Source: Acidobacteriota bacterium
GTDB lineage: Bacteria > Acidobacteriota > Terriglobia > Acidiferrales > UBA7541
Assembly (NCBI GenBank): GCA_003224525.1
Contig: QHZB01000188.1
Location: 1-39,037 of the forward strand
DNA: 39,037 nucleotides
Direction: 5' to 3'
Shown: positions 36,318-39,037 of the stretch, one piece after another
Layout of the letters: the number at the start of each line of letters is the position of its first letter
How positions within the stretch are numbered: position 1 is the first letter of the stretch
Made by a program: the position numbers and the translations under genes
Notes under the pieces: model-generated
Seen by the model: the letters and a program-made list of their open reading frames with translations, nothing else
Told to the model about the DNA's origin: nothing
Databases searched by the model: none

Positions 36318-36621
36318 GTAGTCTCCTTTGATCGCTTCCGCTCTGGGTGACCGAAACCTATATTCGTTAGATGTTCAGACGGCTGGGAGGATGCCCGTCA
36401 TCTCCACCCTTTCGCCGCGGGTTTGTTCAGACGGGACGCAAGCGTTCAACTTCCGACGTCTTGCATAAGTTGAATTAATCCGATTCAGTATAACTATTAA
36501 TTTGACTCATTGACTCCCGCGCCCCATCCTGCTAGTTTGATGGCCAAGGCTTATGTTTAGCCCCGCCATAGGAAGAGATCGGACTCTCGCGAAGGATAGA
36601 ACTGCCCGAATCCTGTACTCA
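36318..36621. other. Promoter region between broken FAD gene and ilv leader
   Basis: About 300 bp between divergent units. It must hold the ilv promoter and the promoter of the broken FAD-dependent gene. The part around 36470-36520 is notably AT-rich (AGTATAACTATTAATTTGACTCATTGACTC) and could carry -35/-10 boxes: TTGACT occurs twice (36502 and 36511 region) and TATAAC and TATTAA precede it. I could not choose a convincing pair. No gene found. Confidence 0.35.
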
Positions 36622-36672
36622 ATGGCTGTAGGAATGATTCCCGTTCCCGTAAGGGGGACAACCGGCGGATGA
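36622..36672 (+). CDS. Putative ilv leader peptide (16 codons)
   Basis: Short ORF ATG to TGA encoding MAVGMIPVPVRGTTGG. It contains three Val codons (GTA, GTT, GTA) and one Ile codon (ATT), i.e. end-products of the ilvD/ilvB pathway downstream. Its stop codon lies inside the segment 36667-36680, which can pair with the left arm of the terminator, exactly where a regulatory leader should end. A weakness is that no good ribosome-binding site is visible upstream of the ATG. Other start codons in frame are possible. It is too short for any homology judgement, and the call rests on position and codon content. Confidence 0.45.
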   Translation: MAVGMIPVPVRGTTGG

Positions 36673-36744
36673 TGGCGGCCTAGTACAGCAACACCAGAAG
36701 CTTTCGGGGCCATCATCCAGACCTGGATGATGGCCTTGTTTTTT
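36667..36744 (+). terminator. Attenuator: antiterminator segment plus intrinsic terminator of ilvD-ilvB
   Basis: The terminator stem is perfect over 12 bp: GGCCATCATCCA (36708-36719), loop GACC, TGGATGATGGCC (36724-36735). It is followed by TTGTTTTTT (36736-36744). An upstream copy GGATGATGGCGGCC (36667-36680) resembles the right arm and can pair with the left arm instead (one extra base bulged), forming an antiterminator. This upstream copy overlaps the stop codon of the leader ORF. A GTTCCC/GGGGAC hairpin at 36643-36659 lies further upstream inside the leader ORF. ilvD begins 20 nt after the T tract, so termination here would shut off ilvD-ilvB. Confidence 0.82.
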
Positions 36745-36764
36745 CCTAGTTTCGAATTCTCCGG

Positions 36765-38531
36765 ATGGAAGCAGTTGACGACCATCGAAGGGACTCAGCA
36801 GTGATTGATTCTTTGCCTAAGCCGCGCAGCCACACTCTGACGGATGGAGCGCATCGTGCGCCGGCCCGCGCCATGTTGCGTGCTTCCGGCCTCGCCGACG
36901 AGGACTTCAGGAAGCCTCTAGTGGGCGTGGCCAATACCTGGATCGAGATCGGTCCCTGCAACTATCACCTCCGTGAACTCGCACAGCATGTGAAGGAAGG
37001 CATTCGCGCCGCCGGTGGAACACCTCTGGAGTTCAACACTGTCTCCATTTCCGATGGCATCACCATGGGCACAGAAGGCATGCGAACCTCACTCGTTAGC
37101 CGTGAAGTCATCGCCGATTCGATCGAGCTCGTCACACGAGGGAATCTCTTCGATGCGCTGATTGTTCTGGTCGGCTGCGACAAAACAATTCCCGGCGGTG
37201 TGATGGCCTTGGCGCGTCTCAATATTCCCGGACTTATTCTGTATGGCGGCTCGATCGCGCCGGGGCAGTTCGAAGGCCATTCCGTCACCATCCAGGACGT
37301 CTTCGAAGCCGTCGGCAAGCACGCCCGCGGCGGAATGACGGACGCGCAGCTCAGGACGCTTGAAGGTGCTGCATGCCCCGGAGCCGGTGCCTGCGGTGGA
37401 CAATTCACCGCAAACACGATGGCCTTGGTCTGCGAGTTTCTCGGGATCGCGCCCATGGGACTTTCGAGCGTTCCCGCCACGAATGCCCGAAAGGCAAACG
37501 CCGGTCATCGCGCAGGGGAATTAGTCGTTGATCTTCTTTGCCGCGATGTCACTCCCTCGAAAATTATCACCAAAGCTGCGATCGAGAATGCCATCGCCGG
37601 TGTTGCTGCAACAGGCGGTTCGACGAATGCCGTGCTGCACTTGCTGGCCATTGCTAACGAAGCGAAGATCTCGCTTTCCATCGACGATTTCGACCGCATC
37701 AGCTCGCGCGTTCCCATTCTCGCGGATCTCAAACCAGGCGGACGTTTTGTCGCAACCGATCTCTACGCAGCAGGCGGCACGGCGCTGGTCGCAAAGCGCC
37801 TCCTTGAAGCTGGATTGCTTCGCGGCGATTCCATCACCGTTACGGGACGCTCGCTCGCCGAAGAAGCGGCCGCCGCAAAGGAAGCGCCCGCGCAGCAGGT
37901 TGTCTCGAAGCTCGACGCGCCACTCAAGCCGACAGGCGGGCTCGTCATCCTCAAAGGAAATCTCGCTACGGATGGCTGCGTCATAAAGGTTGCCGGCCAC
38001 AATCTGCAGGATTTCCGCGGCCCCGCCCGCGTATTTGAAAGCGAAGAAGCAGCTTTCACTGCCGTCGAAAAAAGCATCATCATGGCGGGAGATGTAATCG
38101 TCATTCGTTACGAGGGCCCGAAAGGCGGCCCGGGCATGCGTGAAATGCTCGCCGTTACCGCCGCTCTGGTGGGCGCCGGTCTTGGCGATTCCGTCGCTCT
38201 CCTCACCGACGGCCGTTTCTCCGGCGCTACCCACGGCTTCATGGCCGGACACGTAGCGCCCGAAGCCGCCAACGGTGGCCCGATAGCGGCAATCGCGGAC
38301 GGTGACATCATCGTGTTCGACATTCCCAACAGGCGATTGAATGTCGAACTCAGCGCCGCGGACATTCAGAAGCGTCTCGCTGGGTGGAAGCCGCCTGCCC
38401 CCCGCTACACAAGCGGTGTCATGGCCAAGTACGCTTTGCTGGTTTCTTCTTCTTCTCTCGGCGCAGTCACTGTCGTTCCTACTTCCTTTTCAGGAACAGC
38501 TCAACCTGTTTTGAACGCGAGGACTCTATGA
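36765..38531 (+). CDS. ilvD: Dihydroxy-acid dehydratase
   Basis: IlvD (EC 4.2.1.9) dehydrates 2,3-dihydroxy-3-methyl acids in valine, isoleucine and leucine synthesis in the cytosol. The 588-residue protein has the cluster cysteines Cys-65 (IEIGPCNYH), Cys-138 ([10 protein letters not shown]) and Cys-210 (CPGAGACGG). The spacing (73 and 72 residues) is like that of [2Fe-2S]-type enzymes. Other signatures are the [14 protein letters not shown] stretch, [25 protein letters not shown] and [14 protein letters not shown] 36765 lacks a clear ribosome site. GTG 36801, with AAGGGA about 6-9 nt upstream, gives a more usual N-terminus and is a strong alternative. ilvB overlaps the stop by 3 nt. Expression is probably controlled by the attenuator just upstream. 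Confidence 0.97.
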
Positions 38532-39037
38532 AGCTCACTGGTGCGGAAATTCTTTGCGACTCGCTCACGCGCCTGGGCGTGCGCGAGATCTTCGGCTATC
38601 CCGGCGGCGCCATTCTTCCGGTCTATGACGCACTTGGTAAATCGAAGCTGCATCACGTCCTTGTCCGCCACGAACAGGGCGCCACACACATGGCCGATGG
38701 CTACGCGCGCGCCAGCGGTGGCATCGGCGTCGCCATGGCCACATCTGGTCCGGGCGCAACGAACATGGTTACCGGCATCGCCACCGCCATGCTGGACTCT
38801 TCTCCGGTCGTTTGCATAACCGGCCAGGTCAGCAGCAAAGTCCTGGGCTCCGACGCCTTTCAGGAGATCGACATCACGGGCATCACCATGCCCATCACCA
38901 AGCATAACGTGGTGGTCACGAAGACAGAGGACATTGCGCGCACTCTCCGTGAAGCCTTCCTGATCGCCAATAGCGGGCGTCCCGGTCCAGTCCTTGTGGA
39001 CATCACCAAAGACGCCCAACAAGCTTCCGCTGAATTC
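38528..39037 (+). CDS. ilvB: Acetolactate synthase large subunit, N-terminal part (cut by window edge)
   Basis: Thiamine-diphosphate enzyme making acetolactate/acetohydroxybutyrate, the first committed step of branched-chain amino acid synthesis. The 170 visible residues are the start of the N-terminal ThDP (PYR) domain: [32 protein letters not shown], then [16 protein letters not shown] with the catalytic Glu-49. [31 protein letters not shown] and [20 protein letters not shown] follow, typical of IlvB and not of other ThDP decarboxylases. The start overlaps the ilvD stop (ATGA), so the two are translationally coupled and share the upstream attenuator. The catalytic C-terminal domains and any ilvN regulatory subunit lie beyond the window. 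Confidence 0.96.

Follow-up and report, generated by a model that had tools for sequence, protein, structure and literature searches.

The leader upstream of ilvD-ilvB in the window (the whole 39,037-nt stretch of Acidobacteriota DNA analysed here) very probably acts as a ribosome-mediated transcription attenuator, judged on its sequence and on that of its relatives. The mechanism would be a variant of the classical one, in which a common switch core serves interchangeable sensor peptides. Such a switch had been proposed in the initial annotation, with a ribosome stalled at valine codons leaving a second copy of a terminator arm free to form an antiterminator, and a ribosome that reaches the stop codon covering it. 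That logic is supported here from two sides: the parts are conserved together, and the peptides of related switches match the pathway of the genes that they precede.

The ilvD-ilvB leader

The features of the leader and its genes, in window coordinates, are as follows:

36502-36507, + strand: -35-like TTGACT inside the conserved block TATTAATTTGACT; TTGACT or TGGACT in 27 of 27 located blocks
36525-36530, + strand: -10-like CATCCT after a 17-nt spacer, conserved as CATNCTGNTA; invariant alignment columns, start site putative
36540-36571, + strand: 5' inverted repeat whose loop contains the leader start codon; ATGGCGAT...ATCGCCAT in many relatives, with a degenerate form in the window
36553-36672, + strand: leader peptide ORF, 39 codons plus TGA, MFSPAIGRDRTLAKDRTARILYSMAVGMIPVPVRGTTGG and stop; frame open and conserved across the genus
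36628-36651, + strand: control codons GTA, ATT, GTT, GTA; VVRIIPVPV in relatives
36640-36658, + strand: candidate pause hairpin covering the last Val codons, CCCGTTCCCGTAAGGGGGA; consensus helix, several pairs with changes on both sides
36667-36676, + strand: region 2, GGATGATGGC; carries the leader stop codon
36708-36720, + strand: region 3, GGCCATCATCCAG; partner of region 2 or region 4
36723-36744, + strand: region 4, CTGGATGATGGCC, with T tract, forming the intrinsic terminator; arm 36723-36735, six T 36739-36744
36801-38531, + strand: ilvD, dihydroxy-acid dehydratase; likely start GTG 36801 (ATG 36765 in the ORF list)
38528-39037, + strand: ilvB, acetolactate synthase large subunit; start approximate, runs off the window

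On re-reading of the sequence, the arms, terminator stem and T tract lie where they had first been placed, and the coordinates bear out the claim that the leader TGA (36670-36672) falls within the alternative arm, region 2, which is a second copy of the terminator arm. Region 4 repeats the region 2 arm, region 3 is complementary to both, and an intrinsic terminator is present between the leader ORF and the first gene. The predicted energies are -26.2 kcal/mol for the 3:4 hairpin versus -20.9 for the 2:3 hairpin, making 3:4 the more stable, and the leader (36600-36764) folds better than 198 of 200 shuffles; in the predicted fold of this leader, region 2 sits in an upstream helix, a candidate for the 1:2 pairing that would protect the terminator when the leader is untranslated. 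The control codons are Val at 36628 (GTA), 36643 (GTT) and 36649 (GTA) and Ile at 36637 (ATT), with the last Val codon 16 nt upstream of region 2 and the stop within it. Judged against the ribosome footprint as generally known, this placement would allow a stalled ribosome to free region 2 and a finishing ribosome to cover it.

The transcription start, leader translation, stalling, termination and amino acid response that we infer would run as follows. RNA polymerase would start just upstream of ATG 36553, with a ribosome translating the 39-codon leader behind it. When charged tRNA-Val and tRNA-Ile are scarce, the ribosome would stall on the Val/Ile codons (36628-36651), before coming near region 2 (36667-36676). 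Region 2 would then pair with region 3, block the 3:4 terminator and allow ilvD-ilvB to be transcribed. When charged tRNA is ample, the ribosome would reach the TGA inside region 2 and cover that region, region 3 would pair with region 4, and transcription would end at the T tract. Elsewhere in the phylum, the same 2-3-4 core would be combined with different sensor ORFs upstream of further amino acid genes.

All 27 genus leaders with a located promoter block carry (T)ATTAATT(T/G)GACT followed, after 17-18 nt, by CATNCTG or a close form; an alternative promoter (TTGACT 36510-36515 with TAGTTT 36533-36538) overlaps it in the window. The position of this block would therefore put the leader start near the 5' end of the transcript. 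The 5' inverted repeat, with a loop of 9 to 24 nt among relatives, has both arms changed with the repeat kept in two of them (GGCGCT/AGCGCC in L027, GGGCGAT/ATCGCCC in L029), and it may be an RNA hairpin or an operator; as a hairpin it is mostly not significant in individual sequences. At least two genus members (L025, L026) have ilvD but lack the attenuator entirely, and retain the conserved TTAATTTGA promoter block, a natural deletion; the promoter element reads TTGACT in one (G021, L025) and TTGATC in the other (G002, L026).

Downstream, ilvD probably starts at GTG 36801, a codon that is preceded by GAAGGGA, in frame with ATG 36765 and common to relatives, where it follows a Shine-Dalgarno sequence. 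The T tract had been described as lying 20 nt before ilvD; the tract stands, and the distance becomes about 56 nt to this GTG. The second gene is presumably ilvB, on the basis of family knowledge and of similarity to ilvB of related loci. The location of the gene start bears on whether the leader ORF acts instead on translation, with ilvD coupled to it or reached by reinitiation. One study proposes reinitiation between leaders and genes in many bacteria, Acidobacteria included, but sets the peak of reinitiation distances near 10-13 nt and places attenuation at 40 nt or more (PMC4833913). With 128 nt between the leader stop and GTG 36801, and a strong terminator in between, a translational role is very hard to credit.

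Conservation of the predicted leader peptide and antiterminator

The leader ORF had at first been given as 16 codons from 36622, with three Val codons and one Ile codon. The codons, the frame and the stop are confirmed; the start and the length are revised, as the same frame is open upstream to ATG 36553 (39 amino acids) with the stop unchanged. The shorter ORF was rejected on comparative grounds: relatives have an ATG at the 36553 position, where their peptides begin (MFSLAIVNDR... in L003, MLSLAITNDR... in L004, MTSIAITSTQ... in L010), and often none at 36622, where the ATG is peculiar to the window genome and is replaced by ATT or CTT in close relatives. An early worry, that 36622 lacks a ribosome-binding site, is accounted for because the true start lies upstream, and there too no consistent Shine-Dalgarno sequence was seen before the leader ATG in the window or the genus leaders.

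The genus set comprised 28 aligned leaders. In 21 of them the frame runs without interruption to a stop within the antiterminator arm, and frame statistics were taken from these 21 undisturbed sequences. Since they were chosen as in-frame, their stop counts over 33 codons (0 in the Val/Ile frame versus 39 and 7 in the other frames) are a description, and the tests proper are the substitution pattern and the Val/Ile content. Mean BLOSUM score at differing codons is 0.13 in the Val/Ile frame versus -1.24 and -0.80 in the others, and the synonymous share is 22% versus 10% and 7%; the substitution pattern of the predicted upstream ORF is thus coding-like in 21 of 28 genus leaders. Val and Ile together average 7.4 of the last 25 residues, versus 3.1 for shuffled versions of this DNA that are free of stops. 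The window leader is among the least Val/Ile-rich of the genus copies and is weak by itself (5 Val+Ile in 25, P = 0.07 versus shuffles); on the present sequences, the strength of the case comes from the comparative data.

Seven of the 28 leaders are exceptions: the stop comes slightly early in L006 and L013, the frame extends past region 2 in L007 and L009, and L023, L028 and L030 have no clear Val/Ile frame. The TGA-to-TAA change in L009 was considered as a sign of selection on the stop and rejected, as an indel moves the Val/Ile frame of that leader beyond region 2; the change that it carries in regions 2 and 3 is compensatory. Across most of the genus, the ORF, the Val/Ile codons, the stop position, the antiterminator and the terminator are kept together, the opposite of a terminator retained while ORF and codons are lost, which had been named at the outset as the pattern that would count against attenuation.

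Covariation among relatives, a check suggested in the initial annotation, was run on a diverse phylum alignment (A3). The antiterminator 2:3 shows 17 cells changed on both sides versus 8.3 in shuffles (0 of 500 reaching this value), and slid controls are far lower. Fifteen of the 17 fall at two outer pairs, columns 7/71 and 8/70, which include G-C, C-G, U-A and U-G forms; they lie outside the 3:4 stem and therefore support 2:3 beyond the reach of the terminator. These outer two positions are unpaired in 8 to 12 of the 28 A3 sequences. The terminator stem is paired in 97.4% of cells, with the T tract present.

These data bear on the simplest reading of the locus, an ordinary intrinsic terminator before ilvD with chance copies of its arm and no regulatory role. 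Stems resembling GGCC(A/G)TCATCC also serve as plain terminators at the ends of genes in the class (L240, L260, L261), but a plain terminator would leave unaccounted for the joint conservation of second arm, ORF and stop, and the covariation specific to 2:3. An exact search for the pattern, too strict to serve as a survey tool, found it in 10 of 396 genomes, versus none of 396 for the reversed control pattern. We consider a plain terminator highly improbable.

A probable switch core across the Acidobacteriota

Two covariance models were used to follow the attenuator beyond the genus. The first (R1), built from the genus leaders, has one match in the window's genome (a second listed match is the same terminator on the other strand). 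At class level it matches 26 of 200 genomes and at phylum level 25 of 247, with many of these matches preceding ilvD, ilvB or ilvN of other families. The second (R2), made from the R1 matches, covers only the core, beginning just upstream of region 2 and ending with the T tract. At E <= 0.01 it matches 81 of the 396 Acidobacteriota genomes, spread over 45 of 211 genera, the weakest of these matches including plain terminators. Some genomes have two or three R2 copies, each before different genes, and G445 has them before three gene sets; in the window's genome no second copy was found with R1, and R2 gave only the ilvD copy below E = 1. Among 50 named genomes, the R2 matches below 1e-6 are confined to five genomes, all Acidobacteriota, while the 33 named controls from other phyla give no match below 1e-3. 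Weak matches before unrelated genes (L134, L135 and L156 for R1; L240, L241, L244, L250 and L257 for R2) were set aside as chance or plain terminators.

In two Verrucomicrobia (L089, L105), the terminator that precedes ilvD has a competitor for its stem in an upstream arm, GGGCGGCT, and a simple scan found no Val/Ile frame in either. In Geothrix paludis (L062), the 300 bases before ilvD hold a Val/Ile-rich short ORF followed by a GGCCCCGCA/TGCGGGGCC terminator, a layout that matches the window switch with a different core sequence.

Genes downstream of the core were grouped by BLAST and assigned with Pfam and NCBIfam on one representative per group. They comprise ilvB, ilvN, ilvD, ilvA, cimA, hom, ask, cysteine-pathway genes and pheA, with products that include acetolactate synthase large and small subunits, dihydroxy-acid dehydratase, citramalate synthase, homoserine dehydrogenase, aspartokinase, threonine ammonia-lyase, prephenate dehydratase and sulfur/cysteine proteins. 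The two cases among these that we take to be cysteine synthase were identified by a PALP match of partial length and by eye from the motif GSIIEQVGNTPLLRLRHVA. Representative leader peptides, each followed by a stop, are:

ilvB leader, L231: ending SVITLLIPVIIVVVVLLIKSG
ilvD leader, L151: MHSMSFRPVVVVVSRVGVVITPTASG
citramalate synthase leader (gene feeds isoleucine), L246: MAQRTITHIGIAIIIITGVSPGG
aspartokinase leaders, L210: MLIVPVRPTMTRTTTITTGDSSGG; L215: ending METMTTTTTTIGVDGRCG
homoserine dehydrogenase leader, L221: MTAGHMKTTATPGTPMTGRTGSG
cysteine gene leader, L242: ending MLVRACACPCCCPACCRRQDVVYG
pheA leader, L265: MNFAKDQFFAFYFSGFYYSAL

The predicted leader peptide matches the pathway downstream, being rich in Val/Ile, in Ile only, in Thr/Met or in Cys. 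As R2 holds no sequence upstream of region 2 bar about 8 bases, the peptides were not selected by the model. With a single peptide-picking rule and 100,000 permutations of the gene labels, Val+Ile is 0.32 in ilv leaders versus 0.17 (reached in 0 permutations), Ile 0.23 in citramalate synthase leaders versus 0.11 (68), Thr 0.22 in hom and ask leaders versus 0.07 (0), and Cys 0.25 in sulfur-gene leaders versus 0.01 (3; class of n = 3), figures that overstate certainty because related genomes are not independent. Two pheA genes with Val-rich leaders (L163, L201; L268) fit the same pattern, as ilvB follows them in the same direction.

Several loci add detail to this repertoire. In three homoserine dehydrogenase leaders (L164, L207, L222) the frame is shifted and region 2 encodes Met-Met-stop (GG ATG ATG TAG), which places Met codons inside the switch arm. 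Leu-rich leaders accompany the core at L159, L186, L218 and L209; the first three precede a conserved protein of 88-90 amino acids (the one tested had no Pfam match), which was not found at L209, and in two Leu-leader loci checked (L269, L272) ilvC lies convergently downstream. At L232 and L239, the core and Leu/Ile-rich leaders precede a cupin-like gene and what, read by eye, we presume to be an mqnD-like gene, rather than amino acid genes.

Conservation of the 2-3-4 core beyond the needs of pairing, across different operons, could hint at a trans-acting factor, and so at a switch under the control of an RNA-binding protein, a metabolite or uncharged tRNA, in which the short ORF would be a by-product. 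The upstream ORF is nevertheless coding-like, its residues track the pathway of the downstream gene, and no Rfam family, T-box included, matches the leader even at E up to 5. A switch without ribosome stalling thus seems unlikely, and attenuation by a translating ribosome is preferred. The core itself may be common by descent, by copying within genomes or through a core-reading factor; it may also reflect a general preference for the stem, because ordinary terminators with similar stems exist in the class. On a broader scale, we see an even chance that the phylum holds a modular attenuator, one core with a built-in leader stop joined to sensor ORFs for Val/Ile, Ile, Thr/Met, Cys, Phe and Leu, and either spread within genomes by duplication and sensor swapping or held by a core-reading factor.

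Relation to known attenuators and implications

The Proteobacterial attenuators of trp, his, ilvGMEDA and thr combine a leader peptide rich in the end product with alternative 2:3 and 3:4 hairpins and a T tract. In a general comparison, the leaders described here share all of these, as well as genes of the same pathways downstream, but differ in three respects: many unrelated operons carry a near-identical 2-3-4 core, region 2 contains the stop, and no consistent Shine-Dalgarno sequence precedes the start. Outside the Proteobacteria, attenuators of ilvB/ilvBNC have been predicted and tested in Actinobacteria (PMC1262725, PMC11857589, PMC10272879); they likewise pair leader-peptide regulation with branched-chain genes, whereas the present switch belongs to another phylum, has no sequence relation that we could see (no Rfam match) and heads an operon that begins with ilvD. 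A 2010 survey reports premature terminators in Acidobacteria, the same phylum as the present switch, and states that almost none of them had an assigned function and that knowledge of leader-peptide systems was then limited to Proteobacteria and Actinobacteria (Naville and Gautheret 2010, PMC2965389). The initial annotation knew of no described example for the phylum, and our search of the open full-text literature likewise found no leader-peptide attenuator in Acidobacteriota, a result short of proof because most subscription papers, including the survey of Lopatovskaya et al. 2010, lie outside its coverage.

Leader-peptide attenuation is textbook biology, covered in the open literature for Proteobacteria, Actinobacteria and some Firmicutes, and the mechanism proposed here is itself classical; what is unusual is the phylum, the breadth, and a single core with the stop codon built in. 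The finding would assign a role, in several amino acid pathways at once, to attenuators of a phylum whose surveyed examples almost all lacked one, and it draws attention to small leader ORFs, which gene callers tend to overlook. A common core with swappable sensors would also make testable how attenuators arise and how they move between operons.
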